From Chamaelirium japonicum (taxonomy: Eukaryota; Streptophyta; Magnoliopsida; Liliales; Melanthiaceae): DNA of 64,000 nt. The stretch covers positions 12,282,073 to 12,346,072 of the forward strand of contig OX393549.1 of the NCBI GenBank assembly GCA_947650365.1, read 5' to 3'. The notes under the pieces were generated by a model. The model did not search any database and was not told where the DNA came from. It worked only from the letters and a program-made list of their open reading frames with translations. Below, piece by piece: positions 28,986-58,362 of this stretch. A program made the position numbers and the translations under genes. Every line of letters begins with the position of its first letter. Positions within the stretch are counted from its first letter, which is position 1.

Positions 28986-29025
28986 TCCCAAGAAGGCTGA
29001 GACAGGTATATCTCAAATCCACATA

Positions 29026-32000
29026 GTGGAATCCCTAGTAGCATCCAGTTGTTCTCCAGTCTCATGGATTGTGGATTCTGATTCCACTAACCATGCTTGC
29101 AATAATTTGCAGGGGTTCAAGGAGACAAGAAAACTGGCTGATGGGGAGATAATCCTAAGCATGGGAATTGAGGCCGTGGCAGAGGCTGAAGCAGTTGGAG
29201 ATGTCATCTTGCAGTTCCTTGATGGAAGAAGTTTATTACTTAGAGACATACTTTATGTACCGTCCTTGAGACGTAATTTAATTTCTGTTTCCTTATTGAA
29301 TAATGAAGGTTTTTCAGTTTTATTTGATTCTTCTGGTGTGTCAATTAAATTGAATGGTTCCTTTGTTTGTAAGGGAAAGATACAGAATAGTCTCTATGTA
29401 ATTAACTCCAATCATAAGCAGGATAACATAACTGAAGCTTGTGTGATTAATTCATCTAAAAGGAAAAATCCCTCAGATAATCCAACACTTCTTTGGCATC
29501 TAAGGCTTGGACACATAGCCTCAGACAGGATTCACTGGTTGGTTAAGGTAGGACTCTTAAGTCCAAATGTTTCAGAAAGCCTACCGACGTGTGAGTCTTG
29601 CCTGGAAGGCAAGATGACTAAAAGGTCTTTCGGAGCCAAAGGTAGCAGATCTAAGGAGGTATTGGAGTTGGTACACACTGATGTATGTGGGCCCATAAGT
29701 GTTTGTGCCATAGGAGGCTTCGAGTATTTCATCACCTTCACGGATGATCACTCGAGGTTTGGATACATATACCTAATGCGGCGGAAGTCTGAATCCTTTG
29801 ATGAGTTCAAGGAGTTCAGAGCTGAAGCAGCAAAGCAGATGGGTAAAAGTATCAAGTCTCTTCGATCGGATCGAGGAGACGAATACCTTTCGGATGAATT
29901 TATTGGGTACCTGCATGAGCATGGGATCGTATCCCAGTTGACTGCACTAGGGACACCATAACAGAATGGTGTATCTGAGAGGAGAAACCGAACTTTGTTA
30001 GACATGGTTCGGACTATGATGAGTTATGCAACATTGCTACCTAGTTTTTGGGGATATGCCCTAGAGACGGCAGCATATACTTTGAACTTTGTTCCATCAA
30101 AGTCAGTACCCCTAACTCATTGGGAGCTGTGGTTGAAGCGAAAGCCAAGCCTACAACACTTTAGGATTTGGGGTTGTCCAGCACATGTACGGAAGGACAA
30201 GCGAGATAAGATGGAGTCAAAAACAAAGGTATGTCTGTTCGTTGGGTATCCAAAAGGGACAAAGGGTGGTTTATTTTATGATCCTGAGGATAGAAAGGTT
30301 ATCGTCTCGACGAACGCCGTATTCCTGGATCAGGATTATTTAATAGACCATAAGCCCACCAGTAAAGTAGTTCTTGAAGAATTGCTTGGTACTGATGGGA
30401 GTACACAGACAGAAAACGTAGTGGGAGCCGATACCACTAAGATTAACGGTACTGTAGAATCGACTCCTATGGAACCACCGCAGGTTCGTCGCAGTTGGAG
30501 GACCACAAGTGCTCCTGATAGATACATTGGAGAAGCCTTTATGGTTGATCCAGAGTTTCAGGAGAATGATCCTCTGAACTATGACGAAGCGATGATATCC
30601 ACTGACCATGCAGTATGGCAGGAAGCCATGGAGGCAGAACTGACATCAATGTCCCAAAACTCAATTTAGACACTTGTAACACCATCTCACAACATTAAAC
30701 CTGTTGGGTGTAAGTGGGTGTACAAAAGGAAAAGAGGTCCAGATGGTACCGTTGAGACTTACAAAGCTAGACTAGTCGCTAAGGGTTATACCTAGCGAGA
30801 AGGGATCGACTATGACGAAACCTTTTCGCCAGTGGCTATGCTTAAGTCTATCTGGATCCTCTTGTCCATTGCAGCCCATTATGATTGGGAGATCTGGAAA
30901 ATGGACGTCAAGACCGCATTCTTCAATGGGGATTTGGAAGAAGACATCTACATGTCTCAGCCTCCAAGCTTTGTCGCAAAAGATCAGGAAGGTCTGGTGT
31001 GCAAAGGTCCATTTATGGACTGAAGCAAGCATCCAGAAGTTGGAACATGCGTTTTGATCAGGCTATTCAGTCTTATGGATTTGAACAAAACGTGGATGAA
31101 CCATGTGTTTATAAAAGGAGCGATAAGACTGCAGTAGTTTTTCTAGTGCTTTACGTGGATGATATCCTACTCATCGGAAATGATGTTGGAATGTTGTCTA
31201 CAGTAAAGGTGTGGTTATCCTCTCAATTTGACATGAAAAACCTGGGTGAAGCGAGTTATGTTCTGGGGATCAAGGTAACTCGAGATCGCCAGAACAAGAT
31301 TCTCTCGCTGTCACAGTCAGCCTACATAGATACTATCTTAGTCAGATTCAGAATGCACAACTCCAAGAAGGGACTGGTTCCATTCAGACATGGAATGAAG
31401 TTGTCCAAGGATCAGGGTTCTAAGATTCCTGAGGAGAGGGCAGAGATGCAGAAGATACCTTATACTTCGGCTGTAGGGAGTCTGATGTATGCCATGCAGT
31501 GCACGAGACCAGATATATGCTATGCAGTAGGCATGATGGGCAGGTATCAGTCAAATCCGGGTCCAAGGCACTGGACTGCTGTGAAAAGTATACTCAAGTA
31601 TCTCCGTAGGATGAGATATTATGAGTTAGTTTACTCTTCACAGGAACTGATGTCGATTGGATATACGGATTCTGACTTTGCGTCAGATCCGGAATCCAGG
31701 AGATCGACGTCAGGGTTTGTGTTTTCATTAGGAGGAGGAGCTGTCAGTTGGAGGAGCGTGAAGCAGGGATGCATCGCGGATTCGACGACAGAGGCTGAGT
31801 ACGTTGCGGCGTGCGAAGCAGCTAAGGAGGCGGTGTGGCTCAAGAAGTTCCTCACGGACTTAGGATGCGTACCGGGAGCTCAAGATCCTATTGTCCTTTA
31901 CTGCGACAATAGTGGAGCGGTAGCACAATCCAAGGAGCCAAGATATCACCAGTAGAGCAAGCATATCGAGCGAAAATACTGCATAATCTGGGACTTGCAG

Positions 32001-35440: not shown

Positions 35441-35683
35441 GGATAAATTACACTTTACCCCCTGAAGTTTTGCTCAAAAACACTTAACCCCGCCCTATAC
35501 TTAGAAAGCTACATTTTGCCTCCTTCAAGTCAGATAAAAATCACCAAATGAGAAAATTAAGTAGTTGGTAAAATGGGTGCTGTGCTAACAGCTCAGACTT
35601 TAGGGAGTGATTTGGAACAAAATAAAGTACAAAGAGTTAAGTGTTTTTGAGCTAAACTTCAGGAGGTAAAATGTAATTTATCC
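35441..35683. mobile_element. 243-bp MITE with ~45-bp inverted ends
   Basis: The left end GGATAAATTACACTTTACC and the block TTTTGCTCAAAAACACTTAA are matched in inverse order by GTTAAGTGTTTTTGAGC and ATGTAATTTATCC at the right. No coding capacity. It lies about 170 bases beyond the 3' end of the zinc-finger gene. The target duplication was not resolved. Confidence 0.85.
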
Positions 35684-35853: not shown

Positions 35854-36675
35854 TTAGTAATAACAATCCACCAGTGCTGTCGCCGCCGTGAAGACCGCCG
35901 GCCGCTTGCCAGCGAAGGTCAACCCCACGGAAGACGATCTCAGGAACTCCCCTCGATCGTCATCGGAAGGCGCCGGGAGATTCAGATCCAACGAGAGGAA
36001 GCTGTCCTTCTTCCCTTCCGGCGAGACCGCCGGCCTGTGCCGCCGCATGTGGCCCCCCAGGGCCTGCCCGGAGGAGAACTCCGACCCGCATATCGAGCAC
36101 TCGTGGACCCTCGACTTACTTCCGCCGCCGGTGATGTTTCCGCCCGGAGGCGCCGTCGGCTTCGCGAACGAGTTCATACTGATCCGCAGATGATCGCCAT
36201 CCAGCGCCGCTCTCCGTTCCTCCGTCGCCGCCGCCGCCGCCGGGATCGAGATCTTATGCTTCTTGTGGCTGGCGCGGTGCCCGCCGAGCGCCTGGAACGA
36301 CGGGAAGCACTTGTTGCAGGTCTTGCACTCGTAGACGTAGAACCCCGCCTTCCCGGCTGTGGTGGTGGCCGCCTCCGCGAACCTCCGGCTGGTGAACTTC
36401 TCCTCCTCGGCCGGGGGCGGCGGCAGGGACCGCCCCTGCGCGAGGAGGATGAGGCAATTGGCCATGTCCTCCTCCTCCTCCGTGGCGGCGGCGCTCTTGC
36501 TCTCGGCGGAGGAGGCCGAGGAGGTGGGCGCGTCCGCGGGCGGGGGGAGGACCCGCTGGCGCTTGGTCCTCTTCCCCTTCACGACAGCGATGGCGGGTGG
36601 CGGGGGGAATTCGCCGTTGCTGTTGGTGCTGCTGCTGCTGATGTTGGATCCCATGGCCTCTTCCGTGACTTCCAT
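35854..36675 (-). CDS. ZAT5-like: C2H2 zinc-finger transcriptional repressor, ZAT5-like
   Basis: Intronless gene for a 273-aa nuclear DNA-binding protein of the plant C1-2i/ZAT family, whose members bind DNA through QALGGH fingers and repress stress or developmental genes. Residues 33-41 (KGKRTKRQR) are a basic nuclear-localisation box. Residues 67-81 (EEEDMANCLILLAQG) are the L-box. Finger 1 starts at C117 and C120 with QALGGH at 128-133. Finger 2 starts at C193 and C196 with QALGGH at 204-209. The DLNLPAP at 230-236 is an EAR repression motif of the DLNxxP type. The methionine at 36675 was chosen because MEVTEE is the family-typical start and lies downstream of a TATA box; an in-frame upstream ATG at 36741 would add 22 atypical residues. 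MGSN at residue 8 is an alternative. The coding GC content is high compared with the AT-rich flanks, as is common for such genes. It looks intact and is the only clear host gene in the window. Confidence 0.95.
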   Translation of the reverse strand: MEVTEEAMGSNISSSSTNSNGEFPPPPAIAVVKGKRTKRQRVLPPPADAPTSSASSAESKSAAATEEEEDMANCLILLAQGRSLPPPPAEEEKFTSRRFAEAATTTAGKAGFYVYECKTCNKCFPSFQALGGHRASHKKHKISIPAAAAATEERRAALDGDHLRISMNSFAKPTAPPGGNITGGGSKSRVHECSICGSEFSSGQALGGHMRRHRPAVSPEGKKDSFLSLDLNLPAPSDDDRGEFLRSSSVGLTFAGKRPAVFTAATALVDCYY

Positions 36676-36781
36676 GCACCTTCTCCTCCTCCTTATGGTG
36701 AGGCTAGAGAGAGAAAGAGTTGGCCGGAGAAAAAAAAACAAGAGATAGAGTGATGGAGAAAGCTAGGTGAATGGAGTGCAA

Positions 36782-40576: not shown

Positions 40577-40741
40577 TGTTGAAAAACTTAGAGAAGATCC
40601 GCACACTGTATCCTCCTCCTTTTCTCATTTTCTTGTCTTCCTCTCTAGTTCTTTCTTCCTCTTTACTTTCAGTCTACTCTCCCCTGTCTACGTGGAAAAC
40701 CCTAGGCCGGGTTTTCATTCGCTCCTCGTCCTACTCAATCT
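40577..40741 (-). repeat. 5' LTR of the minus-strand element, inner part
   Basis: Primer-site-proximal portion of the LTR. The CACTA transposon starts at 40742, and the LTR continues at 57911 after the TCT target duplication. Confidence 0.8.
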
Positions 40742-41215
40742 CACTACAAAAAAAACAGTTATTACCGACGGACAATATCCGTCGATAATATTAACATTCC
40801 GTCGGTAATGTTCTATAGCGACGGAAGATATTTCCGTCGCTGGCTGTCGGGAAAAAAGGCGTCGGGGAAAACAATACGACGGACCAAATATTACCGTCGG
40901 TAATAATAATTAATACCGACAGTAATATTAAAGCCGTCGGTAATATTTAATCAATTAAAAATTAATATAATATATTATTACCGACGAAACTTAAGAATCC
41001 GTCGGTAATATATAAGCATTTTACCGACGGTTATGGTCTATACTGTCGGTAATACTATATATATTACCGACGAATATATATATTGCCCGTCGGTAATAAT
41101 ATATATATTACCGACGGATATTATATGCCGTCGGCAAATTATTTATAATTTAAAAAATATAAAAACATTATTACCGACGAAATAATTAATTTTCGTCGGT
41201 AATAAGTATGTTTTT
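40742..41215. repeat. left subterminal repeats of the CACTA
   Basis: About twenty copies of TTACCGACGG or its complement CCGTCGGTAA, mostly paired as small inverted repeats with AT-rich loops. In En/Spm such subterminal motifs are bound by the TNP1/TnpA-type protein; that role here is inferred. Confidence 0.9.
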
Positions 41216-41474
41216 TTTTAAAATAAATTTACCTAAATAATGTTATTTAATTCTTGTGATTTACAATAATACCACAATATATTACCACAATTTATCAAAT
41301 ATTACCATAATTTATAAAATATTACCGCAAATTTTAAAATTTTACCTAAATTGATAAAAAATTACAGCAAATTATCAAATATTACCACAGTACCCGGCCG
41401 ACAATTATAGACAAAAACAAAAAATAACCACATTAGAAAATAATATTTACACAATCCAGAACTGAGAGATGATA

Positions 41475-41665
41475 CATGCCCTATTTCAACCACCCCCGCC
41501 CGCCATCAACACTGGTGCTCTCATCGATCCCCTGACGCCGCCCTATCTCAACCACCCTCGCCCGGCACCAACGCTGGTGCTCTCATCGATCCCCAGACGC
41601 CGCCCTATCTCAACCATGCCCGCCCACCACCAACGCTCTCTCATCGATCCCCTGACGTCGCCCTG
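41475..41665 (+). repeat. three-copy ~60-bp minisatellite in the CACTA
   Basis: Units share GCTCTCATCGATCCC, TGACGCCGCCCTATCTCAAC and a CGCCCGCCA/CCACCAACGCT-like block. GC-rich in contrast with its surroundings. Confidence 0.75.
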
Positions 41666-41714
41666 CTCCTGCAATTAACATGTATTTGTTAAAAAAATGG
41701 TTTATATCTATAAC

Positions 41715-44700
41715 TGAGTCTAAGCGTTAAAAAATGATAAGTTAGCGTGTTTCGGTTTTGAAATAGGTTTGGATTCGATCGGATCGGCATCCGATAATTC
41801 GAAGTTGGAATTATTCCGTATTTCAGACTTGCGAGCGGGTTCTAATTGGATATTTGACCAATTTACGCTCCGATTCACCGATTTAGAGTCTAAGTGTTGG
41901 AAAATCATAACTTAGCGTGTTTCGGATATGAAATAAGTTTGGATTCGATCCGATCATCATCGGATCGGCATCCGATAATTCGAACTTGGAATTATTCCGT
42001 ATTTCGAACTTGCGAGCGGGTTCTAATTGGATATTTGACCAATTTACGATTTGATTCACCGATTTAGAGTCTAAGTGTTGAAAAATCATAAGTTAGCATG
42101 TTTCGGATATGAAATAGCTAGGTTTGGATTCGATCGGATCGTCATCGGATCGGCATCCGATAATTCGAACTTGGAATTATTCCGTATTTTGGACTTGCGA
42201 GCGAGTTCTAATTGGATATTTGACCAATTTACGCTCCGATTCACCGATTTAGAGTCTAAGTGTTGGAAAATCATAACTTAGCGTGTTTCGGATATGAAAT
42301 AGGTTTGGATTCGATCCGATCATCATCGGATCGGCATCCGATAATTCGAAGTTGGAATTATTTTGTATTTCGGACTTCCGAGCGGGTTCTAATTGGATAT
42401 TTGACCAATTTACGCTCCGATTCACCGATTTAGAGTCTAAGTGTTGGAAAATCATAAGTTAGCGTGTTTCGGATATGAAATAGGTTTGGATTCGATCCGA
42501 TCGTCATCGGATCGGCATCCGATAATTCGAACTTGGAATTATTCCGTATTTCGGACTTGCGAGCGGGTTCTAATTGGATATTTGACCAATTTACGCTCCG
42601 ATTCACCGATTTAGAGTCTAAGTGTTGGAAAATAATAACTTAGCGTGTTTCCGATATGAAATAGGTTTGGATTCGATCCGATCGTCATCGGATCGGCATC
42701 CGATAATTCGAAGTTGGAATTATTCCGTATTTCGGACTTGCGAGCGAGTTCTAATTGGATATTTGACCAATTTACGCTCCGATTCACCGATTTAGAGTCT
42801 AAGTGTTGGAAAATCATAAGTTAGCGTGTTTCGGATATGAAATAGGTTTGGATTCGATCCGATCGTCATCGGATCGGCATCCGATAATTCGAACTTGGAA
42901 TTATTTCGTATTTCGGACTTGCGAGCGGGTTCTAATTGGATATTTGACCAATTTACGTTCCGATTCACCGATTTAGAGTCTAAGTGTTGGAAAATCATAA
43001 CTTAGCGCGTTTCGGATATGAAATAGGTTTGGATTCGATCCGATCATCATCGGATCGGCATCCGATAATTCGAACTTGGAATTATTCCGTATTTCGGACT
43101 TGCGAGAGGGTTCTAATTGGATATTTGACCAATTTACGATCCGATTCACCGATTTAGAGTCTAAGTGTTGGAAAATCATAACTTAGCGTGTTTCGGATAT
43201 GAAATAGCTAGGTTTGGATTCGATCGGATCATCATCGGATCGGCATCCGATAATTCAAAGTTGGAATTATTCCGTATTTTGGACTTGCGAGCGAGTTCTA
43301 ATTGGATATTTGACCAATTTACGCTCCGATTCACCGATTTAGAGTCTAAGTGTTGGAAAATCATAACTTAGCGTGTTTCGGATATGAAATAGGTTTGGAT
43401 TTGATCCGATCGTCATCGGATCGGCATCCGATAATTCGAAGTTGGAATTATTCCGTATTTCGGACTTGCGAGCGGGTTCTAATTGGATATTTGACCAATT
43501 TACGCTCCGATTCACCGATTTAGAGTCTAAGTGTTGGAAAATCATAACTTAGCGTGTTTCGGATATGAAATAGGTTTGGATTCGATCCGATTGTCATCGG
43601 ATCGGCATCCGATAATTCGAAGTTGAAATTATTCCATATTTCGGACTTGCGAGCGAGTTCTAATTGGATATTTGACCAATTTACGCTCCGATTCACCGAT
43701 TTAGAGTCTAAGTGTTGGAAAATCATAACTTAGCGTGTTTCGGATATGAAATAGGTTTGGATTCGATCCGATCGTCATCGGATCGGCATCCGATAATTCG
43801 AACTTGGAATTATTCCGTATTTCGGACTTGCGAGCGGGTTCTAATTGGATATTTGACCAATTTACGTTCCGATTCACCGATTTAGAGTCTAAGTGTTGGA
43901 AAATCATAACTTAGCGTGTTTCGAATATGAAATAGGTTTGGATTCGATCCGATCGTCATCGGATCGGCATCCGATAATTCAAACTTGGAATTATTCTGTA
44001 TTTCGAACTTGCGAGCGGGTTCTAATTTGATATTTGACCAATTTACGATCCGATTCACCGATTTAAAGTCTAAGTGTTGGAAAATCATAAGTTAGTGTGT
44101 TTCGGATATGAAATAGGTTTGGATTCGATCCGATCGTCATCAGATCGGCATCCGATAATTCGAACTTGGAATTATTCCGTATTTCGGACTTGCGAGCGGG
44201 TTCTAATTGGATATTTGACCAATTTACGTTCTGATTCACCGATTTAGAGTCTAAGTGTTGGAAAATCATAACTTAGCGTGTTTCGGATATGAAATAGGTT
44301 TGGATTCGATCCGATCGTCATCGGATCGGCATCCGATAATTCGAACTTGGACTTATTCCGTATTTCGGACTTGCGAGCGGGTTCTAATTGTATATTTGAC
44401 CAATTTACGATCCGATTCATCGATTTATAATCTAAGTGTTGGAAAATCATAACTTAGCGTGTTTCGGATATGAAATAGCTAGGTTTGGATTTGATCGGAT
44501 CGTCATCGGATCGGCATCCGATAATTCGAAGTTGGAATTATTCCGTATTTTGGACTTGCGAGCGAGTTCTAATTGGATATTTGACCAATTTACACTCCGA
44601 TTCACCGATTTAGAGTCTAAGTGTTGGAAAATCATAACTTAGCGTGTTTCGGATATGAAATAGGTTTGGATTCGATCCGATCGTTATCGGATCGGTATCT

Positions 44701-47255
44701 GATAATTCGAAGTTGGAATTATTCCGTATTTCGGACTTGCGAGCGGGTTCTAATTGGATATTTGACCAATTTACGCTCCGATTCACCGATTTAGAGTCTA
44801 AGTGTTGGAAAATCATAACTTAGCGTGTTTCGGATATGAAATAGGTTTGGATTCGATCCGATCGTCATCGGATCGGCATCCGATAATTCGAAGTTGGAAT
44901 TATTCCATATTTCGGACTTGCGAGCGAGTTCTAATTGGATATTTGACAAATTTACGCTCCGATTCACCGATTTAGAGTCTAAGTGTTGGAAAATCATAAC
45001 TTAGCGTGTTTCGGATATGAAATAGGTTTGGATTTGATCTGATCGTCATCGTATCGGCATCTGATAATTCGAACTTGGAATTATTCCGTATTTCGGACTT
45101 GCGAGCGGGTTCTAATTGGATATTTGACCAATTTACGTTTCGATTCACCGATTTAGACTCTAAGTGTTGGAAAATCATAACTTAGCGTGTTCCGGATATG
45201 AAATAGGTTTGGATTCGATCCGATCGTCATCGGATCGGCATCCGATAATTCGAACTTAGAATTATTCCGTATTTCGGACTTGCGAGCAGGTTCTAATTGG
45301 ATATTTGACCAATTTACGATCCGATTCACCGATTTAGAGTTTAAGTGTTGGAAAATCATAAGTTAGCATGTTTCGGATATGAAATAGCTAGGTTTGGATT
45401 CGATCGGATCATCATCGGATCGGCATTCGATAATTCGAAGTTGGAATTATTCCATATTTTGGACTTGCGAGCGAGTTCTAATTGGATATTTGACCAATTT
45501 ACGCTCTGATTCACCGATTTAGAGTCTAAGTGTTGGAAAATCATAACTTAGCGTGTTTCGGATATGAAATAGGTTTGGATTCGATCCGATCATCTTCGGA
45601 TCGGCATCCGATAATTTGAACTTGGAATTATTCCGTATTTCGGACTTGCGAGCGGGTTCTAATTGGATATTTGACGAATTTACGTTCCGATTCACCGATT
45701 TAGAGTCTAAGTGTTGGAAAATCATAACTTAGCGTGTTTCGGATATGAAATAGGTTTGGATTCGATCCGATCGTCATCGGATCGGCATCCGATAATTCGA
45801 AGTTGGAATTATTCCGTATTTTGGACTTGCGAGCGGGTTCTAATTGGATATTTGACCAATTTACGATCCGATTCACCGATTTAGTGTCTAAGTGTTGGAA
45901 AATCATAACTTAGCGTGTTTCGGATATAAAATAGCTAGGTTTGGATTCGATCGGATCGTCATTGGATCGGCATCCGATAATTCGAACTTGGAATTATTCC
46001 GTATTTCGGACTTGCGAGCGAGTTCTAATTGGATATTTGACCAATTTACGCTCCGATTCACCGATTTAGAGTCTAAGTGTTGGAAAATCATAACTTAGCG
46101 TGTTTCGGATATGAAATAGGTTTGGATTCGATCCGATCATCATCGGATCGGCATCCGATAATTCGAAGTTGGAATTATTCCGTATTTCGGACTTGCGAGC
46201 GGGTTCTAATTGGATATTTGACCAATTTACGCTCCGATTCACCGATTTAGAGTCTAAGAGTTGGAAAATCATAACTTAGCGTGTTTCGGATATGAAATAG
46301 GTTTGGATTCGATCCGATTGTCATCGGATCTGCATCCGATAATTCGAAGTTGGAATTATTCCGTATTTCGGACTTGCGAGCGAGTTCTAATTGGATATTT
46401 GACCAATTTACGCTCCGATTCACCGATTTAGAGTCTAAGTGTTGGAAAATCATAAGTTAGCGTGTTTCGGATATGAAATAGGTTTGGATTCGATCCGATC
46501 GTCATCGGATCGGCATCCGATAATTCAAACTTGGAATTATTCCGTATTTCGGACTTGCGAGCGGGTTCTAATTGGATATTTGACCAATTTACGTTCCGAT
46601 TCACCGATTTAGAGTCTAAGTATTGGAAAATATAACTTAGCGTGTTTCGGATATGAAATAGGTTTGGATTCGATCTGATCGTCATCGGATCGGCATCTGA
46701 TAATTCGAACTTGGAATTATTCCGTATTTCGGACTTGCGAGCGGGTTCTAATTGGATATTTAACCAATTTACGATCAGATTCACCGATTTAGAGTCTAAG
46801 TGTTGGAAAATCATAAGTTAGCGTGTTTCGAATATGAAATAGCTAGGTTTGGATTCGATCGGATCGTCATCGGATCGGCATCCGATAATTCGAAGTTGGA
46901 ATTATTCCGTATTTTGGACTTGCGAGCGAGTTCTAATTGGATATTTGACCAATTTACGCTCCGATTCACCGATTTAGAGTCTAAGTGTTGGAAAATCATA
47001 ACTTAGCGTGTTTCGAATATGAAATAGGTTTGGATTCGATCCGATCGTCATCGGATCGGCATCCGATAATTCGAACTTGGAATTATTCCGTATTTCGGAC
47101 TTGCGAGCGGGTTCTAATTGGATATTTGACCAATTTACGCTCCGATTCACCGATTTAGAGTCTAAGTGTTGGAAAATCATAAGTTAGCGTGTTTCGGATA
47201 TGAAATAGCTAGGTTTGGATTCGATCGGATCGTCATCGGATCGGATCGTCATCGG
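41715..47255 (+). repeat. 181-bp satellite array (~30 units) with higher-order structure
   Basis: Head-to-tail units of 181 bases, highly alike. Each contains TTAGCGTGTTTCGGATATG, AGGTTTGGATTCGATCCG, a CATCGGATCGGCATCCGAT palindromic block, GAATTATTCCGTATTTCGG, TTCTAATTGGATATTTGACC and GATTTAGAGTCTAAGTGTTGG. One unit type carries a 4-base addition (ATAGCTAGG) at 42117, 43207, 44478, 45387, 45934, 46842 and 47208. These gaps are 6, 7, 5, 3, 5 and 2 times 181, plus 4, within a base. Other variants (ACGCTCC/ACGTTCC/ACGATCC, AGTTGG/ACTTGG, GCGAGTT/GCGGGTT) repeat in a consistent order. The 62-68 codon frames in each unit are repeat artefacts. Confidence 0.97.
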
Positions 47256-47374
47256 GCCAAATATTTTACAACAAAAACATAACTTGAGAGCATCTACATC
47301 AGATTTTTAATCTATGGACAGACCAAACCCAACCTGACCCGACCCGACCCGAACTAATCTGTCCGTTTTTTTTT
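47256..47374. other. junction after the satellite array
   Basis: Contains ACCCGACCCGACCCGA, a short degenerate repeat. No gene. Confidence 0.4.
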
Positions 47375-47705
47375 TTTTAATTTGAACCCTGAACTATGCT
47401 CCGCCTACGTTTAACCCCTCTATCAATTTTTATCCCGAAAACACCCATACCCTTATCCAAGTAAGCATAAGTTAAATATTTCAAAAATCATGAGCCTTTC
47501 GGTACCATTAGCTTTATCCTAATAAGCATAAGTTAAATATTTCAAAAAATCATGAGCCTTTTGGAAATTGATAAGTGTATTTTTGGACAAAAAGTTTACG
47601 GAGGAAGATAAATGCAGACGGAGCATAGTTCAGGGTTCGAATTGTTTAAAAAAACAGCTAAGGGACCAATATGAATAGAGGTGTAAAGTTCAGGGAAGGT
47701 TTTTG
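47375..47705. mobile_element. small foldback or MITE-like sequence in the CACTA
   Basis: TTGAACCCTGAACTATGCTCC near the left end is matched inversely by GGAGCATAGTTCAGGGTTCG near 47618-47640. Between them a block AAGCATAAGTTAAATATTTC with TCATGAGCCTTT occurs twice in direct orientation (about 47464 and 47522). No coding capacity; borders uncertain. Confidence 0.6.
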
Positions 47706-48172
47706 TAATTTTCCCCTTTACTTAATGTTCAATGGATAGGAGGGGGAGATGGATAATATTTTCATACCTTGAAAGATAAATCTTGTGCAGGATTGTTAGT
47801 AAGTACACCTGTTTACTACTCTAGTTTGTATGTAAACCTCTTCTTAAAATAATCCAGTTCATCACCATGCACCTGTAAAAGATTCAGAAGGCTCATTTAA
47901 ACACCGGACAGAGGTGCTGAACATTATTGTTAGCATTTCAGAAATATTTGTAGTACTACTTTATGACCTTATGTAACCGGTTGAACCAACAAATGGATTT
48001 CTCTTGCACCAGTATCCAGTCCATCGCCATCTCGTACTCAATCGTGTTCGGCTGTGAGCAGTGTGACGTTGCCACGGCCTTTTTCTGATAACAAAGTTCA
48101 AGCATTAGAGAAAAAAAAAGCGTCAGTGAATTTAAAATAATTTGCACTTACAAAGCTTCAATCAAAGTTTGC
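47706..48172 (-). other. unassigned; possible further captured exon sequence
   Basis: On the minus strand a splice-acceptor-like TTGTTATCAG near 48089 opens a frame reading KKAVATSHCSQPNTIEYEMA and on to about 47960. I do not recognise it. A second acceptor-like TTTTACAG stands near 47877. Because an Argonaute exon lies just upstream on the same strand, these could be parts of other captured gene sequence, but no family can be named. Confidence 0.3.
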
Positions 48173-48286
48173 CTGTATGCCAGCATAACTGCAGAGATAG
48201 AAATCGAACTCCGTTGGGTGGCATATTGTTGTGTCCACTACAAATGTCACATGAGGGAGATATCCCTCTTCCAACGAGGCACACAC
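48173..48286 (-). pseudogene. AGO: captured Argonaute PIWI-domain exon fragment
   Basis: The minus-strand translation reads [17 protein letters not shown] joined directly to [38 protein letters not shown] is the near-invariant Argonaute signature in the C-terminal PIWI half. The [12 protein letters not shown] form is closest to the AGO1/5/10 clade, perhaps AGO5-like (from memory). It is preceded by an intron-like sequence ending CTAG, and it stops after GIQ, where plant AGO genes are interrupted by an intron. The roughly 25-35 residues that normally lie between VTFVVVQKRHHTR and GTVVD are absent, with GTAGTG at the join, consistent with a deletion between short repeats. Only 38 codons remain, so it cannot encode a working protein. 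It sits between the 181-bp array and TNP1, on the TNP1 strand. Confidence 0.9.
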
Positions 48287-48365
48287 CTAGCATGATTAAA
48301 AAACAAAATTCTATCATTTAAAAGAAAAACAGAGGCTACATCATTACCATGAGAGAGAGAGAGAC

Positions 48366-48414
48366 CATTTACGATCCGATTTACCGATTTAGAGTCTAAG
48401 TGTTGGAAAATCAT
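48366..48414 (+). repeat. isolated fragment of the 181-bp monomer
   Basis: ATTTACGATCCGATTTACCG followed by ATTTAGAGTCTAAGTGTTGG and AAAATCATAAG matches about 50 bases of the satellite unit, in the orientation of the large array. It lies alone, next to a short GA run, between the Argonaute fragment and TNP1. Confidence 0.9.
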
Positions 48415-48494
48415 AAGTGTGATAATATGATCTAAACTCAAATTAGTAAGATTCATATTTTTTGCTATTATTATAAAGATTAGTAAGTACCTGA

Positions 48495-50189
48495 TCATGA
48501 GGATGAGCCACCGCTAGACCGGTTTATGAATTCATAAAATTTACGCTCCAGTTCCCTGCGAGCTTCTCTTTCCTCATCGAGGGCCTTCTTCTCCGCCTCA
48601 ACCCTCTGCTCGAGGGCCTGCCTCTGCTCTCGCTCCACCTCAATCCTCTGCTCGAGGGCCTGCCTCTGCTCTCGCTCCGCGTCTAGCGCAGACTGCAGCT
48701 GAGTGATAGCACCGGTCTGGGTGTCCCGTGCCCTCGAGCGCATACCCTCTCGTCCAAAGTAGGAGGAGGGCGTGACTCCAAGGCCCGTACAGAGGACACG
48801 GCCGTGCGTGGCAGGTCTCAGCACAGTATCCATCGCTGAGTCGACAGATACTGAGCTGGAGGAGGAGCCGGCCTCGCCCAACGGGGTCACCAGAAGTCGC
48901 ATCCTCTCCTATATAAAAACAACCAATGATATTCAATGATATTTTATGGCATATGTATAAGAATATATTAACAGTAATTTAATTACTTACCACTTGCGAG
49001 GCAACCCTATCGTCCAGAAATGCCCCATTGATACGCCGCCTCCTAGAGGCCTCAAAAAGGTCAATCCTATTAGGCTCGTGGCCCAAGGACTGTGTCTGTT
49101 GGACATATAAAATAAATAGATGAGTTAATATAACATGTATAGAGCTTTAAATAATAACAATGTTTGTATCATTTACCAGCTGCTGGGCAAGCTGGGGCAT
49201 GGAGGTCCTCCCCTTCACTGGAGCAGGTGTCGTCGAGGCACTTCTATTCTGCTTGCCTATAGCAGATTTCGCCTGTGTCAATAGATTAAATTTTGAAACA
49301 TCAATACAATTTTTTAGTATAATATTAAAACAAGTACGAATCAACAAAATTATAATTATACCTGAAAGCTAGGGGTGGCCCAGTGAGCGACCAAAAACTA
49401 TAGAATGTGTAGCGGTGGCGCGTCTCTCGTCCCGGCCGCAGCCTGTACCTCCTCAGCCGGCTGGCCGACCAAGTAACCGTAGAGCTGGTAGAGCTCGTGA
49501 AGGTAATCCCTATACCGCTCACCCATCGTCTTCCACAAGTCCTCCCGATGGGTGTCGGTTTCTATGTTCTCCCATTTAAATTTCTCCTGTAAAATTAATT
49601 TAGAAACAAGTCATTTTATCAAATCAAATTATAAAGAAGTACGATATTATTCTAAAATGCTTTAATAAAACTAACGTACCAAAAACTGCTGATACATCCT
49701 CTTCTTATAGGATGCATCAATGTTCTTCCACCCCCTTAACCCCACAATCGGGGCATTCCTCTCCTCCCGTACTATCATGCCGACCCACGTGGCGGCGTCA
49801 GAAGCATGCTCGCCCACAAAGGTCCTGCCGCTCCACTGTAGGGACAGCGACTCGCATAAGGCCGACAAGCGCCGGGCCGTCGTCACGCCCCGATCGCCTA
49901 CGTGCCTGGTCGACCCTGCAAATAAAATATACATCAGTACTGAAGAAGTATTTACAACATGTATAAAACTTTAGATCTAAACATTACCTGTGGGCGTAGA
50001 TGCTGTAGCCGAGTGCTGAGCACTGCTCGAAGCTCCGGAGGCTGCGACCACAGCAGGAGCTGGTGTGGAGAGAGGAACAACACTACCAGATCCGGACGGC
50101 TCAGCCTCGGACCCTGGGGTGGCAGCCGGAGCGCTCCGAGCTACCCCACCCCTGCCTCTGCCTCTACGAACATATGACCGTGATGCCAT
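48495..50189 (-). CDS. TNP1: TNP1-like CACTA accessory protein (Transposase_24 type), six exons
   Basis: Exons on the minus strand: 50189-49988, 49915-49680, 49586-49362, 49272-49177, 49095-48991, 48908-48495. All introns have GT...AG ends and the phases agree, giving 426 codons. The N-terminus MASRSYVRRGRGRGG is basic, followed by a Ser/Pro/Ala-rich linker. Exons 2-5 carry the plant Ptta/En/Spm transposase pattern (RGWKNIDASYKKRMY, FLVAHWATPSFQ, AKSAIGKQNRSAST, EPNRIDLFEASRRRR). Exon 6 is a coiled coil with two EREQRQALEQR repeats. Proteins of this kind bind subterminal repeats and help TNP2 cut the element ends. One in-frame TAG lies in exon 3, just before FLVAHW, near 49400. The methionine at 50189 was chosen because the basic N-terminus follows it. 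Confidence 0.82.
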
Positions 50190-50338
50190 CTGAAACAATT
50201 TAATTTACATATGAAATAGTAAGATTTACATATGAAACAATATGAAACACTTTGATTTACATATGAAACAGTATGATTTACATATGAAACAATATGAACC
50301 CGCTCGCAATATGAAACAATATGAAACAATATGAAACA
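50190..50338. repeat. short repeat (TTACATATGAAACAATATG type), left block
   Basis: Imperfect tandem of CATATGAAACA.TATGATTTA units, about 22 bases, partly reduced to ATATGAAACA. One place (near 50297) contains GAACCCGCTCGCAA, a piece of the 181-bp monomer, embedded among the short units. Confidence 0.85.
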
Positions 50339-51470
50339 GTTAGACTCTAAATCGGTGAATCGGATTGTAAATTGGTCAAATATCCAATTAGAACCTGCTC
50401 GCAAGTTCGAAATACGGAATATAATTCCAAGTTCGAATTATCGGATGCCGATCCAATGACGATCGGATCGAATCCAAACCTATTTCATATCCGAAACACG
50501 CTAACTTATGATTTTCCAACACTTAGACTCTAAATCGGTGAATCAGAGCGTAAATTGGTCAAATATCCAATTAGAACTCGCTCGCAAGTCCGAAATACGG
50601 AATAATTCCAACTTTGAATTATCGGATGCCGATCCGATGACGATCGGATCGAATCCAAACCTATTTCATATCCGAAACACGCTAACTTATGATTTTCCAA
50701 CACTTAGACTCTAAATCGGTGAATCGGATCGTAAATTGGTCAAATATCCAATTAGAACCCGCTCGCAAGTCCGAAATACGGAATATAATTCCAAGTTCGA
50801 ATTATCGGATGCCGATCCAATGACGATCGGATCGAATCCAAACCTATTTCATATCCGAAACACGCTAAGTTATGATTTTCCAACACTTAGACTCTAAATC
50901 GGTGAATCGGAGCGTAAATTGGTCAAATATCTAATTAGAACTCACTCGCAAGTCCAAAATACGGAATAATTCCAAGTTCCAATTATCGGATACCGATCCG
51001 ATGACGATCCGATCGAATCCAAACCTAGCTATTTCATATCCGAAACACGCTAAGTTATGATTTTCCAACACTTAGACTCTAAATCGGTGAATCAGAGCGT
51101 AAATTGGTCAAATATCCAATTAGAACCCGCTCGCAAGTCCGAAATACGGAATAATTCCAAGTTCGAATTATCGGATGCCGATCCGATGACGATCGGATCG
51201 AATCCAAACCTATTTCATATCCGAAACACGCTAACTTATGATTTTCCAACACTTAGACTCTAAATCGGTGAATCGGAGCATAAATTGGTCAAATATCCAA
51301 TTAGAACCCACTCGCAAGTCCGAAATACGGAATAATTCCAAGTTCGAATTATCGGATGCCGATCCGATGACGATCGGATCGAATCCAAACCTATTTCATA
51401 TCCGAAACACGCTAACTTATGATTTTCCAACTCTTAGACTCTAAATCGGTGAATCGATCGGATCGTAAAT
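50339..51470 (-). repeat. second 181-bp satellite array, inverted (~6 units)
   Basis: The same monomer as at 41715-47255 but in reverse orientation. The block CTTAGACTCTAAATCGGTG recurs near 50339, 50522, 50703, 50886, 51071, 51252 and 51433, steps of 181-185. One unit has the 4-base AGCTAGG-type addition (near 51029). Two units have an extra AT (GAATATAATTCC) not noted in the large array. It lies between TNP2 and TNP1. Confidence 0.96.
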
Positions 51471-51473
51471 CGG

Positions 51474-51625
51474 TGAAACGGTATGATTTACATATGAAAC
51501 GGTATGATTTACATATGAATCGGTGAAACGGTATGATTTACATATAAAACAATATGATATACATATGAAACAATATGATTTATATATGAAACAATTTGAT
51601 TTAAATATGAAACAATTTGATTTAC
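51474..51625. repeat. short repeat (TTACATATGAAACAATATG type), right block
   Basis: The same ~22-base unit as at 50190-50338, with GGTATGATTTACATATGAAA forms. The first copies are mixed with AATCGGTGAA from the 181-bp monomer. The inverted satellite array therefore sits inside a short-repeat tract. Confidence 0.85.
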
Positions 51626-51632
51626 ATACGGT

Positions 51633-54600
51633 CTAGTCATTTTCTGTCTCATCTCTGTCACTCTCATCGCTTCCCTCTTCTATTATTTGATCTGCATTCG
51701 CTGTCCAGTTTGTATTGTCGACATCTTTATTTTCGTCGTACACTGCGTCGACAATGATTATCTCATCATTCTGGTATGCATCCAAATCATCATCGACGAC
51801 CCCCACATCCTTGTCTCCCATGTCATAAAAATCTCTGGGTGGTGACCTGACTACAATTTGCCAACCTGGAGAGGTATTATCCGGTGCATAAAATATCTGT
51901 TGCGCTTGAGAGGCAAGAATGAATGGATCTTCATATTGGGTATTCAATCTCTTGCCAGTGTTGATGCTGATAAAACCGTATTTGTCGACATTATAACCAG
52001 TCCCGCGATTATTAACATCATACCAATCGTATTTGAATAATACGATCCGATTTTGGCCAAGGAATTTAATCTCGAGAATCTCGTTGAGGACACCGTAGAA
52101 GTCGATATTTTCTAATTCTTCTTGCTCATCGTTGACGACAACCCCACTATTTTGGGTTCTTCGTGATTTTTCACTATCTTTCGTCCGAAATCTATAACCG
52201 TTCACGATATAACCATCGTACGATATTGCGTCTTGCAAAGGACTACAAGATAAGCGCCAGAGATCCTCATTCATCAGCGGATCGTGGTTGTCGTGCAGCT
52301 CCTGTGCCTATAATAACCATATGACATTCATGATATGAACACATAATTATTGTTCGGTAATGAATGTCAATGAAATTCAGTAATGATGTGAATACTTACA
52401 TGTTTCTCGAACCACGATGGGAATTCACGATCATGAATTTGGGGAGCATTTCGAGTACCCCGATTATTAATGATGGCTTTATGCTTCCTGTTTTACCGGT
52501 TATAAATTAGATTATAATTAGCACATATACTTAATGAATGGACTGAAAGAATGAGTAAATGATCGTAAAATGCTTACTCAATGAATGGCCACACTTCATC
52601 ACATTGGCGCAACACATACATATGTGCCTGTTGAATCTCATCTACAGACAATCGACGGGTTTTGCCTCCTCCTACAGGTCTACCCATTTTGGCAAATATA
52701 GACAGACCCCCATCGAAGTCTATTGGACCACCGTCATAGTTCCGCTCAAGTTGATTGAATCGCGTGTCTATACCATGTAGGTATCTTGAGCAGAATGTTA
52801 GACATTCTTCTGCTAGGTATCCTTCAGTAATTGATCCCTCTGGACGACTTTTATTACGAACATATGATTTCAATGTTCGCAAGTACCTAATTTGAGAAAA
52901 AAATATTTGGATGAATATATCAAGAACGATCAAATACATTGTGCGAATGAGACGAGACGATTACCTCTCGATAAAATACATCCACCGGTAATGAACTGGG
53001 CCGCCGAGTTTGGCCTCATTTGCCAAGTGAACGGTCAAATGCACCATGACATCAAAGAAGGAAGGTGGAAATATCATCTCTAACTTGCACAATGTGAGCG
53101 CAATATCCCTCTCCATCTGTTCAAGTTGGTCCACTCTAAGTACCTTCGAGCACAACTGTCTGAAAAAAGTGCTGAGCTCAATTAACGGACCGGACACCTG
53201 TTCGGTTAAATTCCCACGTATAGCAAGAGATAACAATCGCTGCATAAGAACATGACAATCGTGGCTCTTTAATCCAGACAACTTCCGGCCGTTCTTTTGC
53301 ACGCATCGTGCGATATTCGAAGAATAACCGTCTGGCGTTTTTACAGACCGTAGGAATGCACATAAGGCTGCCTTTTGCTGTGAGCTCATGGTGTAGCATG
53401 CAACTGGCAACACATACTTATCCCCAATCTCTTGGGGATGAAGTGATTTTCGGATGCCTAACTCCTTAAGATCGAGACGAGATTTAAGATTATCCTTCAT
53501 CTTACCGTCGAGATTCAGCAGTGTTCCTATAATATTGCCACACACATTTTTCTCGATATGCATGACATCCAAGTTATGCCGCAAGAGTAGGCTGCTCCAG
53601 TACGGTAGTTTAAAGAAAATACTCTTCTTCTTCCAGTTATGCTCACGCGTAGAATCTTCATGCGTTCTCTTCTTTTTACCTTTTCCAAGTGCCACGGCAT
53701 CAAGCTGATCCAATTCGCACAAGACTTCTACCCCCGAAAGCTGCTCCGGGGCCTTTACAAGTTCCTTCTTGCCGTTGAAAGCTCTTTTGTTCTGCCTCCA
53801 CTTATGTCCGTCAATAAGGAATCTTCGATGGCCCATATAACAGAACTTGCCTCCGTTCTTCAACCGTAATGAATCTGTCTCCTTATTGCATATAGGGCAC
53901 GCCAATTTTCCTTTAGTACTCCACCCGGATAAGTTGGCATATGCAGGAAAATCGTTGATGGTCCATAGAAGTGCCGCATGCATCCGAAAATTCTGGCGCA
54001 ACGAGGCATCATACGTATCGGCCCTAACTTCCCATAACTCGTTCAACTCCTCAATCAACGACTGCAAGTAAACGTCAATATCATTACCAAGCGACCTGGG
54101 TCCGAGAATGAGCAAGGAGAGCATTATGTATGGCTTTTTTAAGCACATCTAGGGAGGCAAATTGTATGGAATTAGGACAACTGGCCAAATGCTGTACGAC
54201 ACACTCATATTCCCAAAGGGATTGAAGCCATCGCTAGCAAGCCCTAACCTGACGTTGCGAACTTCACATGCGAATTCAGGATAGGTATGATCAAAATCTT
54301 TCCATATCAGAGAGTCGGCCGGATGTCTCATAATCCCGTCATCTGTACATTCTCGTGCATGCCACCTCATGTGCTCAGCAGTCTTCGATGACATAAACAA
54401 CCTCTGAAGCCTGTCCCTGAGCGGGAAGTATAGGAGAACCTTTGCAGATACATTTTTCTTTCTTCGACTGGTACTAGACTCGGCATCCGTCTCTTTATAT
54501 CTCGTTGCTCCGCATATGTGGCATGACCGCGCATGTTCATACTCTTTCCGGTACAACATACAATCGTTCACGCATGCATCAATTTTCTCATAACCCAGAT

Positions 54601-55234
54601 CGAGATCTTTAATTGTCTTCTTCGCCTCGTAGAATGATTTTGGTACTGTCTCACCCATAGGAAAAGCCTCTTTCAGCAACTCTACCAACATATTAAATGA
54701 CTTATTACTCCAACCATTGAGGCACTTCAAATGAAGAAGCTTTACAGTGAAAGAGAGTTTTGAAAACTTCTCACACCTTGGGTATAGAGGTTGTTCGACA
54801 TCTTTAAGCAATCTGTAGAACTTGTCCGCTTCGATATTGGGCTGATCACCTGACGGTGTTTCCGTGCCTATTCCACCTTGCAAATCATGTATCATACCCT
54901 GCATGTCATCGTCATCGTCTGTATTAATATTATCATCAGCGATCACTGTGTTTGAAGTTTCACCGTGAGCTGCCATGGGGACTGCATCTAGCTCCTCACC
55001 GTGCGAGAACCAACGGGTATAGCTAATGTCAATGCCACGCATTACCAGATCAACCTCACATTCCTCTCGAACCTTCCTAATCACCCTTCTGCAGTCTATA
55101 CAGGGACACACAATTTTTCCATCAAGCGGTGCAAGACGCTCAAATGTAAAATCCAGAAATTTCCTGACTCCTTCTTTGTACTCTTGGCTCATGCGATTCG
55201 AATTACGCATCCAACTCTTATCGATCGAAGACAT
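51633..55234 (-). CDS. TNP2: TNP2-like CACTA transposase, four exons
   Basis: Exons on the minus strand: 55234-52965, 52886-52578, 52487-52400, 52307-51633. All introns are GT...AG and phase-consistent, giving 1114 codons, a usual length for TNP2. Domains: the N-terminal transposase-associated domain (KSWM.NSNRMSQEYKEGV, CPCIDCRR); the Transposase_21 core (LGLASDGFNPFG, LPP.MCLKKPYIMLSLLI, GNDIDVYLQ, WTINDFPAYANLSGWSTKG, LDVMHIEKNVCGNI); DUF4218 across exons 1-2 (FFDVMVHLTVHL, GGPVHYRWMYFIER, ECLTFCSRYL); a short exon 3 (FPSWFEKH); DUF4216 in exon 4 (EIKFLGQNRIVLFKYDWYDV); and an acidic tail. The protein cuts and moves CACTA ends. Codon 362 is TAG where the family has TGG (LPPW), so one premature stop interrupts the core. 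Otherwise it looks complete. Confidence 0.93.
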
Positions 55235-55965
55235 CTTCGTCTATCTGGCTATACAACACCTGAAGTAATTACAAAATTGTCCAAAACTTATCAAATTGTC
55301 CAAAACTTATCAAATTTACCGATCATACCACTTGTGCATAACTTTATCTTCTAAACAACATCAACTCTCACTAAAAACCAACTTGTGCATAACTTTATCT
55401 TCTAAATTAGCAAAATATATTGAGAGAGGATGGTTCAATATTTCTTAAAAAAAAAAAAAGAGGGGATGGTTCAATAAACTAGTACACCCTTACTATTTAG
55501 AGTTTGGGCGTAAAATGAGCCAAGCTTAACACGACCCGAACGCAGCCCGAACTCAAGTTCGGTCTTGACTGTAGCTCAAAAGCATCCCCTAAAAAGGACT
55601 TTTTACCTGAGTGACTGTTTGGATATGAATATGCTTCAAGATTTTTGGATTATAGGACCCCAAAAGCCCAAAAATTGCACGGAGAGCCCAAAAGACTGTT
55701 TGGTTGTGCCTGTTTTGCTTATTCAGAGAGCCCAAATTGGGAATTTTGTGCTAGTGTGATGCATCCCAAAAGTCTAATGTTAGCAAAAACTAATGTTTAC
55801 TTCGGTGCTAGTGTGATATATGTATCCCAAAAGTCTAAGCCCATGACATATATTTGTGGACTAATATATATAAGTTTGATTCTCGGGTTGGGTCGGGACT
55901 ACCTGGGACTATTTGAACCCCAATTGAAAACCGAACCGTATTGAGTTGAGTTTTCGCAAAATTTA
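55235..55965. other. 5' region of TNP2 in the CACTA; no gene
   Basis: AT-rich upstream and untranslated sequence with two AACTTGTGCATAACTTTATC-like repeats near 55340 and 55380 and a duplicated GGATGGTTCAATA near 55427 and 55460. No coding motif. Confidence 0.5.
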
Positions 55966-55968
55966 TTA

Positions 55969-56222
55969 GTGTCTATTTGGTTGGAGGGTGCTGGAACCGG
56001 CGTGTTCCAACTCACATGTGTTCCGCTAAAACAGTTGTTTGGTTTCGTGCGGAGGCTCCCGACCAGATGAGTTTCAACTCCTCCATGGATTTCGATTGTA
56101 TAGAAAACATGTGAGTTTGTACCCTACGGTTTTTAGGTGGAGTTGCACCTCATTCCGTTTGTACGTATCCCACACATGAGTTAGAACACGCCGGTTCCAA
56201 TTCCCTCCAACCAAACAGGCCC
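55969..56222. mobile_element. 254-bp PIF/Harbinger (Tourist-like) MITE inside the CACTA
   Basis: Flanked by TTA on both sides (55966-55968 and 56223-56225). The left end GTGTCTATTTGGTTGGAGG pairs with the right end CCTCCAACCAAACAGGCCC, and the inverted ends continue through GGAACCGGCGTGTTCCAACT for about 50 bases. No coding capacity. The TTA duplication and GG.CTGTTTGG-type end fit Tourist-like MITEs. Confidence 0.87.
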
Positions 56223-56225
56223 TTA

Positions 56226-57058
56226 GGATCAAACCAACTTATTTAGTCAAAATACCTCTGTGTCGGTTCTCGGTTTACCCGACCCAACTTGCACCACTAG
56301 CTAGGATTAAAGAGTACTATTTGAATCAAAGGGTCGCGACTCTCCCGGGTTTGAAACCGACTGCAACGCTGCCATCTGATGGAAGGTACGCTGAAGGCTG
56401 AATCGGACCGGGCTCGGAATTGAACCCGAAGGCATCACTGCCGTCTGACGGTAGGCACCCTATGAATCACGACCCCTGCTATGAAGGGTTTGATGCCATT
56501 CGGCACCGAATTTATTTTCGGGGGAGTTGTTGAGCGGTCTTCCACAAGAGATCTGTTTTATTTGTATAGCCACTCTAGAGCTGCTCTTAAGAACCTAACA
56601 TAAACATAATCCTAAACCTAAGTTCTATAGGCCTTGGGATTAACTCTAGAACTAAGAATCCTAAACCTAACAGAACCTAAACCTAGGTTATCTTAATGTT
56701 ATGTGTGTTTGAAATTTGTTCAGATTAATCACCAATTAACCCTTTTTTTAAAAAAATAAAATAATTAATGTGTGAGAGGTCCCTGCAACAGAACAATTCG
56801 GTGAATAGGTACTGCATAAGATACGTTTAGCCTAAGGTCCTTGATCCAATATATCGGTTCGGTGAACATGTTCGAAATTTCTAAGGAATCCTAAAAATCC
56901 TAAAAACTTACTTATAGTCACCGGGGGGAGGAGGAGGAGGAGGAGGAGCTGGCCGCCGGTCGCCGGGGAGGAGGAGGAGGAGCCCACGAGGCGGAGGAGG
57001 AGGAGGACCTCGCCGCCGGTCGCCGGGGAGGGGGGGAGGCCGGGGAGGGGGGGAGAAT

Positions 57059-57104
<46 letters not shown>

Positions 57105-57164
57105 GGGAGGGGTTTAGATCGAAACAGAACAAAAGGGGGGATCGCTGAATCTGATTTAAGTCAG
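56226..57164. other. CACTA 5' region with small duplication and GGA-rich tracts
   Basis: About 56345-56470 holds two diverged copies of a block with GCCATCTGATGG.AGG/GCCGTCTGACGGTAGG followed by GAATC. GGAGGAGGA tracts lie at 56930-57055 with two copies of GCCGCCGGTCGCCGGGGAGG, and a (GA)n microsatellite at 57059-57099. No gene. On the minus strand this would be the leader or promoter of the transposase transcripts. Confidence 0.5.
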
Positions 57165-57910
57165 GGTTTTTACCGACGGAACTGTTATATTCCGTCGGTA
57201 ATAATAATCTTTTTACCGACGGTATAATAATATCCGTCGGTAAAAATCGACGACGAAACACATGGTTCCATTTTTTCAGAGGCTCGGTTTTTACCCTGAG
57301 TTTTGTCGGGACACTTTTACCGACGGAAATTTAATTACCGTCGGTATTGTACCGACGGACATATAACGTCCGTCGGTACAAATTCTTTATACCGACGGCA
57401 GTATAAAGTCCGTCGGTAAAAATCAACGACGAAACTCAGGGTTCCATTTTTTCCAGAGGCTCGGTTTTTACCCTGAGTTTCGTCGGGACAATTTTACCGA
57501 CGGATAGTTAATTATCGTCGGTAATTTACCGACGGACATATAATTTCCGTCGGTAAAATTAGTTATACCGACGGAAATATATAGTCCGTCGGTACAATAT
57601 CCCAACGAAACACAGAGTGCCTTTTTTTTCCAGAGACTCGGTTTTTAGCCTGAGTTTCGTCGTGACATTGTACCGACGGACTTTATTTAGCCGTCGGTAT
57701 TAAGTATTTTACCGACGGTATTATACGTGTCGTCGGTATAAAGTATTTTACCGACGGATAATAAGTGACCGTCGGTAATAAATGTGATTAAAAAACTAAA
57801 AAAATTGAAGTTATAATACCGACGGACATTATAGGAACCGTCGGTAAAAAGTATATTATTACCGACGGTGATAATAATGTCCGTCGGTAAAGACCCTATT
57901 TCTTGTAGTG
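57165..57910. repeat. right subterminal repeats of the CACTA
   Basis: About thirty copies of TTTACCGACGG or CCGTCGGTAA, organised in larger direct repeats: a block with GGCTCGGTTTTTACCCTGAG followed by TTTCGTCGGGACA occurs three times (near 57280, 57460, 57640). It ends with TTTCTTGTAGTG. Confidence 0.9.
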
Positions 57911-58362
57911 TCTCAATCCTCTAACAAGAAGAATCACTTACCGTGTCACTGCCTCCTTGAAACTCAAAAGCTTGGGGGAACGTAGCGCGGACGCCCACCT
58001 GGATCATTCACTTCTCCCCACAACTTCCTCTCTCACAAGTTCTTGACCTAACCTTAAATCCACCCTTGTTTCCCTTAAATAGGGAGCAGGCGCATACCAA
58101 AGGGGGACCCAAAAACCACCTCAAATTTCGTCCAAAGCAACTCGAACTCACATCCTGTCCAGCTTGAATCCGTCGTTGTCAGACCCAGGATGTGCGCACG
58201 AATTGTACAAGTTATGCACCTGATTTCTCCACAAATTTGATCACCGCCTTTTCTGTCAATTCACTTGTTCGAAGGAATTCTACAGAAGACATGTGCATGA
58301 CCTGATGAGGTCATGCACGTGATCATGTATGGGCATTGGCTTTTGCAAGTCAAAACCCAACA
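57911..58362 (-). repeat. 5' LTR of the minus-strand element, outer part
   Basis: Continues the LTR cut at 40741. It matches 39040-39559. The outer end reads TGTTGGGTTTTGACTTGC on the minus strand. Confidence 0.8.

Follow-up and report, generated by a model that had tools for sequence, protein, structure and literature searches.

An Argonaute gene fragment captured and amplified by a CACTA transposon of Chamaelirium japonicum is probably carried as a passenger

The capture of gene fragments by CACTA transposons is well known (PMC8903248 and PMC13317346), and conflict through small RNAs common to transposons and genes has been noted (PMC8903248). Rice CACTA elements carry a foldback derived from DRM2, intron included, and miR820 lowers OsDRM2; five miR820 copies are given for Nipponbare and at least 18 for the BB genome (PMC3459959). 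In Drosophila, the telomeric element TART-A captured part of nxf2, and antisense piRNAs were shown (PMC7785250). Here we describe a CACTA element that holds a piece of an Argonaute (AGO) gene and lies in a 64,000-nucleotide stretch of Chamaelirium japonicum DNA, which we refer to as the window. With a probability of roughly 0.8, we read the history of this piece as a single capture followed by a later deletion, amplification, and passive hitchhiking.

The fragment resides in a complete transposon with the following parts:

40742–57910, minus strand: CACTA (En/Spm-type) transposon of 17,169 bp with its transposase on the minus strand (ends, target-site duplication, subterminal repeats, tnp2 domains)
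40739–40741, no strand: left target-site duplication, TCT, 3 bp (sequence)
57911–57913, no strand: right target-site duplication, TCT, 3 bp (sequence)
51633–55234, minus strand: tnp2-type transposase gene in four open reading frames (Pfam Transpos_assoc, Transposase_21, DUF4218, DUF4216)
41778–47244, no strand: 181-bp tandem array, about 30 copies (repeat analysis)
50335–51456, no strand: second block of the 181-bp unit, about 6 copies, opposite in orientation to that at 41778–47244 (repeat analysis)
48495–48902, minus strand: coiled-coil-like reading frame of 135 amino acids just upstream of the AGO fragment (open reading frame; sub-threshold Pfam matches only, to several coiled-coil families)

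The element ends begin with CACTA (CACTACAA...) and read CACTACAAAAAAAAC... and CACTACAAGAAATAGG... at the two ends, where subterminal TACCGACGG repeats are also found (near 40.8–41.2 kb and 57.2–57.9 kb). All the features by which the CACTA superfamily is recognized are therefore present, namely CACTA ends, a 3-bp target-site duplication, a tnp2-type transposase, and subterminal repeats. The original prediction had placed the fragment inside a CACTA element, and the two ends, the TCT/TCT duplication, and the tnp2 transposase bear this out. An in-frame TAG breaks the transposase gene inside its Transposase_21 domain, which together with the division of the gene into four reading frames indicates that the window copy is probably non-autonomous. 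The AGO fragment sits between the two inverted 181-bp array blocks, whose arms are 95–98% complementary. Related 181-bp arrays are present in the long-form relatives (see below) that were read over 10 kb. At another locus, L051, sequence at 9022–9997 that is like the window's element (181-bp array, window 48413–48625) directly adjoins the end of the L051 element, which suggests that one CACTA is nested in another.

The reading frame at 48495–48902 is possibly the tail of a second element gene. A Pfam search of the reading frames around 49.4–50.0 kb for a transposase-type domain gave no match. On its other side, the AGO fragment adjoins a minus-strand reading frame (approximately 47818–48088) with an exon-like look (HCSQPNTIEYEMAMDWILVQEK... 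and VHGDELDYFKKRFTYKLE). This frame is without a Pfam match and has 113 matches in the genome from 117 candidates, several of them beside AGO-fragment sites; no host gene was recognized among the 113, which were surveyed collectively. It is possibly a second captured gene. Outside the element, the window contains nearly nine tandem units of a 156-bp repeat (17974–19331), gag-pol-like reading frames at 9176–13608 and 28396–31955 that look like the remains of two LTR retrotransposons (translations judged by eye), and a minus-strand reading frame of 295 amino acids with two C2H2 zinc-finger stretches (35854–36741; Pfam zf-C2H2_6).

The 38 codons at 48173–48286 on the minus strand are plant Argonaute PIWI sequence. 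Their best match among PDB sequences was Arabidopsis Argonaute 10 (AGO10; E = 3.5e-12), and 24 of the 25 PDB matches at E ≤ 1 were Argonautes, the remaining one being FimU (E = 0.75). The predicted Argonaute origin is thus upheld. The Pfam Piwi model matched the fragment with E = 2.2e-4 and 21 bits, a score below the curated cut-off of 28.9. A functional Argonaute gene combines PAZ, MID, and PIWI domains; the AGO-derived stretch comprises these 38 codons only, all of them PIWI, and makes no Argonaute protein.

A search for the Piwi family in the plant's own genome (1.52 Gb, 3253 contigs) yielded 35 matches from 130 scored candidates. Among the loci that were fetched, one is the clear source of the fragment: L039 (G000:C2:90730001–90740000, plus strand), located at about 90.73 Mb on another contig. 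The other fetched AGO loci share with the fragment pieces of 28–70 bp at 76–86% identity or do not match it. The AGO exons traced in L039 lie between roughly 3.2 kb and 7.46 kb, where the C-terminus is encoded, and can be aligned with three further AGO loci of this genome. Against PDB sequences, the MID domain of L039 scores 157 bits with AtAGO1, 149 with AtAGO5, and 145 with AtAGO10, which places the likely donor in the AGO1/5/10 clade. The three other loci read FANNH where L039 reads FPAVHGNRD; going by these motifs, the FANNH loci may be AGO1/10-like and L039 AGO5-like. The likely parent exons in L039 show 3 mismatches to the fragment over 114 exon bases.

Apart from the fragment, the window's sole match to the L039 locus is 59 bp long (35441–35499) and falls on a stretch of L039 (718–776) that lies upstream of its identified exons. 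This result bears on the possibility that the stretch is a local Argonaute gene or pseudogene, or an artefact of assembly, for which we found nothing in favor. The stretch lies in an element whose two ends and target-site duplication are present, L039-like sequence elsewhere in the window is confined to those 59 bp, and the same join recurs at 203 places in the genome. We consider this reading scarcely credible. An AGO gene or pseudogene at this locus was rejected as a candidate, given a likely donor on another contig and a stretch within a complete CACTA element; the fragment is isolated, as had been proposed.

Comparison with L039 resolves the anatomy of the captured DNA:

48125–48370, minus strand: whole Argonaute-derived stretch, 246 bp (blastn to donor L039 and comparison with L051 and L052)
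48287–48370, minus strand: remnant of the intron preceding the exon, 84 bp, with the acceptor AG at its end (aligned to the L039 intron)
48173–48286, minus strand: two AGO exon pieces in an in-frame fusion, 38 codons (114 bases, 3 mismatches to L039 5813–5864 plus 6042–6103)
48235–48238, minus strand: deletion join with GTGG microhomology, 4 nt (L039 has GTGG at 5861 and 6038)
48125–48172, minus strand: beginning of the next AGO intron, 48 bp (L039 alignment and copy comparison)

The stretch aligns to L039 by blastn in two blocks, introns included (48364–48235, 93.8% over 130 bp; 48242–48125, 94.9% over 118 bp), and its outer edge at 48370 was set by comparison with L051 and L052 at 96–97% identity. 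The AGO piece originally predicted at 48173–48286 is real, but the AGO-derived DNA extends beyond those 114 bp to 246 bp. The flanking introns match those of L039, which agrees with the proposal that capture was from genomic DNA. Sequence is indeed missing at the join, though not from within a single exon, as had been thought: relative to the donor, 177 bp between the two GTGG copies are gone, taking with them the last part of one exon, the complete intron after it, and the first part of the following exon. Judged from the exon borders, 96 coding bases were lost, which leaves the reading frame open. The expected intron acceptor is present on one side of the fused exon. On the other side, the splice site at 48172–48171 is GC in the window and GT in the parent.

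These splice sites raise the possibility that the fused exon is spliced into transcripts of the element, adding a short peptide or an untranslated exon. Among the distinct copies that retain the respective site, the acceptor AG is present in 39 of 39 (43 copies were looked at) and the donor GT in 38 of 39, the exception being the window copy with its GC. Translation of 25 short-fetched deleted copies, three of which are partial long-form copies, showed an open frame in every one. However, at a divergence of only about 1% among copies, their age by itself would account for open frames and unbroken splice sites. The upstream coiled-coil reading frame, moreover, hits a stop before the fragment. 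We regard a role as a spliced exon as very unlikely.

The favored reading, capture followed by passive spread, draws on the other copies of the fragment. A 31-base pattern across the join occurs at 203 places in the genome (≤2 mismatches) and its reversed control at none, which argues against chance and shows that the fragment belongs to a large family. A pattern from the exon middle, which is absent from the window, has 14 matches including the donor (≤3 mismatches), and one from an upstream AGO exon has 32, again including the donor (≤2 mismatches). Long-form copies hold L039 from 5386 to about 6415 (approximately 1.03 kb) or parts of that span. In 19 of 21 such copies, AGO position 5386–5388 is joined to the transposase at window 54373–54377, mostly with a 3-base overlap; the remaining two (L073 and L078) gave no transposase match. 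The copies thus have one common breakpoint, their AGO sequence includes introns, and the likely donor is still present in the genome. In six long-form relatives for which 10 kb was read, no more than about 200–260 bp of transposase sequence is left, and one relative, L049, matches the window transposase over only 114 bp and 81 bp. The shared breakpoint and the transposase remnants point to one capture event into an internally deleted element.

A tree of 31 sequences was built from the donor, 17 copies that share the window's deletion, and 13 that do not, one copy being included twice (L035 and L066). The deleted copies of the window type form one clade with a support of 0.97. Mean divergence from the respective consensus is about 4% for the older copies and about 1% for the sampled deleted copies, which indicates a recent spread. 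Three long-form copies (L073, L077, and L080) have a different internal deletion in common, from about 5925 to 6116 of the donor, and are a second shortened lineage from the same capture.

These observations are consistent with a model in which genomic DNA of an AGO1/5/10-clade gene, about 1.03 kb in length, was incorporated into a CACTA element. Uptake would probably have been as filler while a break inside the transposase gene was repaired, a route suggested by the join overlap of about 3 bases. A 177-bp deletion at the GTGG microhomology later fused two exons, and the clade with this deletion multiplied. The trimmed 246-bp form ended up beside the 181-bp array in transposase-bearing elements like that of the window, likely through recombination. 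Thereafter the fragment would have been carried passively; nothing in the sequence indicates upkeep for a function.

Passive carriage can be compared with function through divergence from the copies' own consensus, calculated separately for the exon and intron parts. The 13 older copies gave 0.042 for exon and 0.036 for intron (p 0.10), and eight deleted long copies gave 0.0128 and 0.0114 (p 0.62). L068 was left out of both counts owing to poor alignment. In 38 distinct deleted copies, exon sites outside the search pattern diverge by 0.0127 compared with 0.0105 for the intron (p 0.44); these are the 43 distinct copies (L066, the same copy as L035, removed) minus L068, L085, L087, L089, and L090. 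When all exon sites are used, the exon is the slower part in 22 trimmed copies (0.0056 versus 0.0105; p 0.06, or 0.03 if a wider stretch of intron is taken). Most copies were located by patterns from the exon join or from the middle of the exon, so that their exon divergence is biased toward low values, and the trimmed copies were picked by the exon pattern or by a query containing the exon. Indeed, they show 0 differences at 594 sites inside the search pattern. Outside it, with the four GTGG bases of the pattern counted as outside, the direction is unchanged but the values are 0.0073 and 0.0105 (p 0.28; wider intron p 0.24). Six copies missing from the displayed zero-mismatch list of the pattern, also a biased choice, go in the opposite direction (0.026 versus 0.007, p 0.01). 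The 38- and 22-copy counts are corrected for the identity of L066 with L035 and for L054 and L070, which are partial long-form copies; the 13-, 8-, and 6-copy counts come from comparisons that precede it, in which these copies were counted among the trimmed class or twice. Selection on the exon was rejected, as it lacks significance when sites inside the search pattern are excluded. With the search bias removed, exon and intron parts diverge similarly among copies.

Relatives that seem to lack the exon provide a second comparison. Searched with ≤2 mismatches, 31-base patterns matched 693 times for the captured intron (48316–48346), 244 times for its 3' end (48289–48319), and 230 times for the exon. 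These pattern counts suggest that about 450 copies have the captured intron but lack the exon. Of the exon-less copies, three were read (L085, L087, and L089), and their breakpoint occurs 11 times. Of 28 zero-mismatch junctions between array and intron on contigs C1 and C2, 24 have the exon (17 from join matches, 6 read, and 1 from exon-pattern matches), 3 are without it, and 1 is cut off just past the join. Such junctions number 608 at ≤2 mismatches and 140 when exact. Exact junctions usually keep the exon, so the apparent exon-less majority, its nature inferred from pattern counts, must lie among junctions with 1–2 mismatches.

The size of this family makes it tempting to speculate that the fragment counters silencing. 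siRNAs from the many copies would hit the mRNA or gene of the donor Argonaute, lower it in the tissue where it is active, and ease the spread of the element, much as has been put forward for CACTA/miR820–DRM2 in rice. The fused join at 203 places, in sampled copies only about 1% diverged, would suit such a role, whereas the approximately 450 relatives indicated by pattern counts apparently manage without the exon. The window exon is identical to the donor mRNA in 43 of 94 21-mers and 37 of 91 24-mers, with a longest exact match of 51 nt; through such matches, siRNAs could reach the donor gene if they are produced. However, the fragment is on the coding strand of the transposase, and read-through RNA would be sense to AGO mRNA. 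The inverted 181-bp array blocks that flank the fragment could give double-stranded RNA if transcribed through, but the region of the fragment yielded no foldback (RNA fold z = +0.58 over 551 nt, no better than shuffles), the fragment is without a second copy in the element, and the element had no Rfam match at the gathering score. A hairpin or miRNA precursor was rejected on these three grounds. The trimmed copies lend a weak, non-significant trend toward a slower exon, set against divergence comparisons in which clear exon conservation was not found. CACTA/miR820–DRM2 and TART-A/nxf2 are published parallels. On balance, we consider the siRNA reading unlikely. It is quite unlikely that these CACTA-borne fragments are an independent counterpart of miR820–DRM2, supplying siRNAs by which the donor Argonaute, possibly of a germline AGO5 type, is repressed and silencing weakened; if true, such a system would need no miRNA hairpin and would act on an effector instead of a methyltransferase. 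The original prediction raised action on the parent gene, which is unsupported so far. Our preference for passive carriage is itself drawn from sequence only.

How, then, does this locus compare with the described systems? It belongs to a known kind, the CACTA element with a captured gene fragment, of which the Argonaute cargo is a new instance. Among the papers listed by searches of open-licence PubMed Central, none described a CACTA element carrying an Argonaute fragment; such an element may still have been published. As in Pack-CACTA and Pack-TYPE elements (PMC8903248, PMC13317346), host gene fragments lie between CACTA ends and are copied by transposition. The six long-form relatives with their short transposase remnants resemble Pack-TYPE elements in this respect as well. 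In contrast, the window element retains a transposase gene, albeit a broken one, and is not Pack-TYPE in the strict sense.

The rice system (PMC3459959) is alike in that a CACTA element multiplied with an intron-containing fragment of a host silencing gene. It differs in that the gene here is an Argonaute, the join occurs at 203 places, and no foldback precursor was found. Of the miR820-like features, the silencing-gene fragment is present, whereas a foldback miRNA precursor is absent by the fold, self-copy, and Rfam tests. TART-A (PMC7785250) is likewise a transposon with captured sequence from a gene in the small-RNA silencing pathway; unlike the present case, which is known from sequence alone, that telomeric element of Drosophila has antisense piRNAs. 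Because a miRNA foldback was sought and not found, we do not file the Chamaelirium element with miR820 and TART-A as a working system, and the present evidence points to no effect on transposon success or donor expression. Its history is well resolved, with a likely donor, a capture breakpoint, a deletion, and an amplification, and the coexistence in one genome of long, fused-exon, and apparently exon-less copies offers a ready comparison for either effect. Together with the rice CACTA elements carrying DRM2 sequence and TART-A carrying nxf2 sequence, the locus is a further case in which a transposon contains part of the machinery that silences it.
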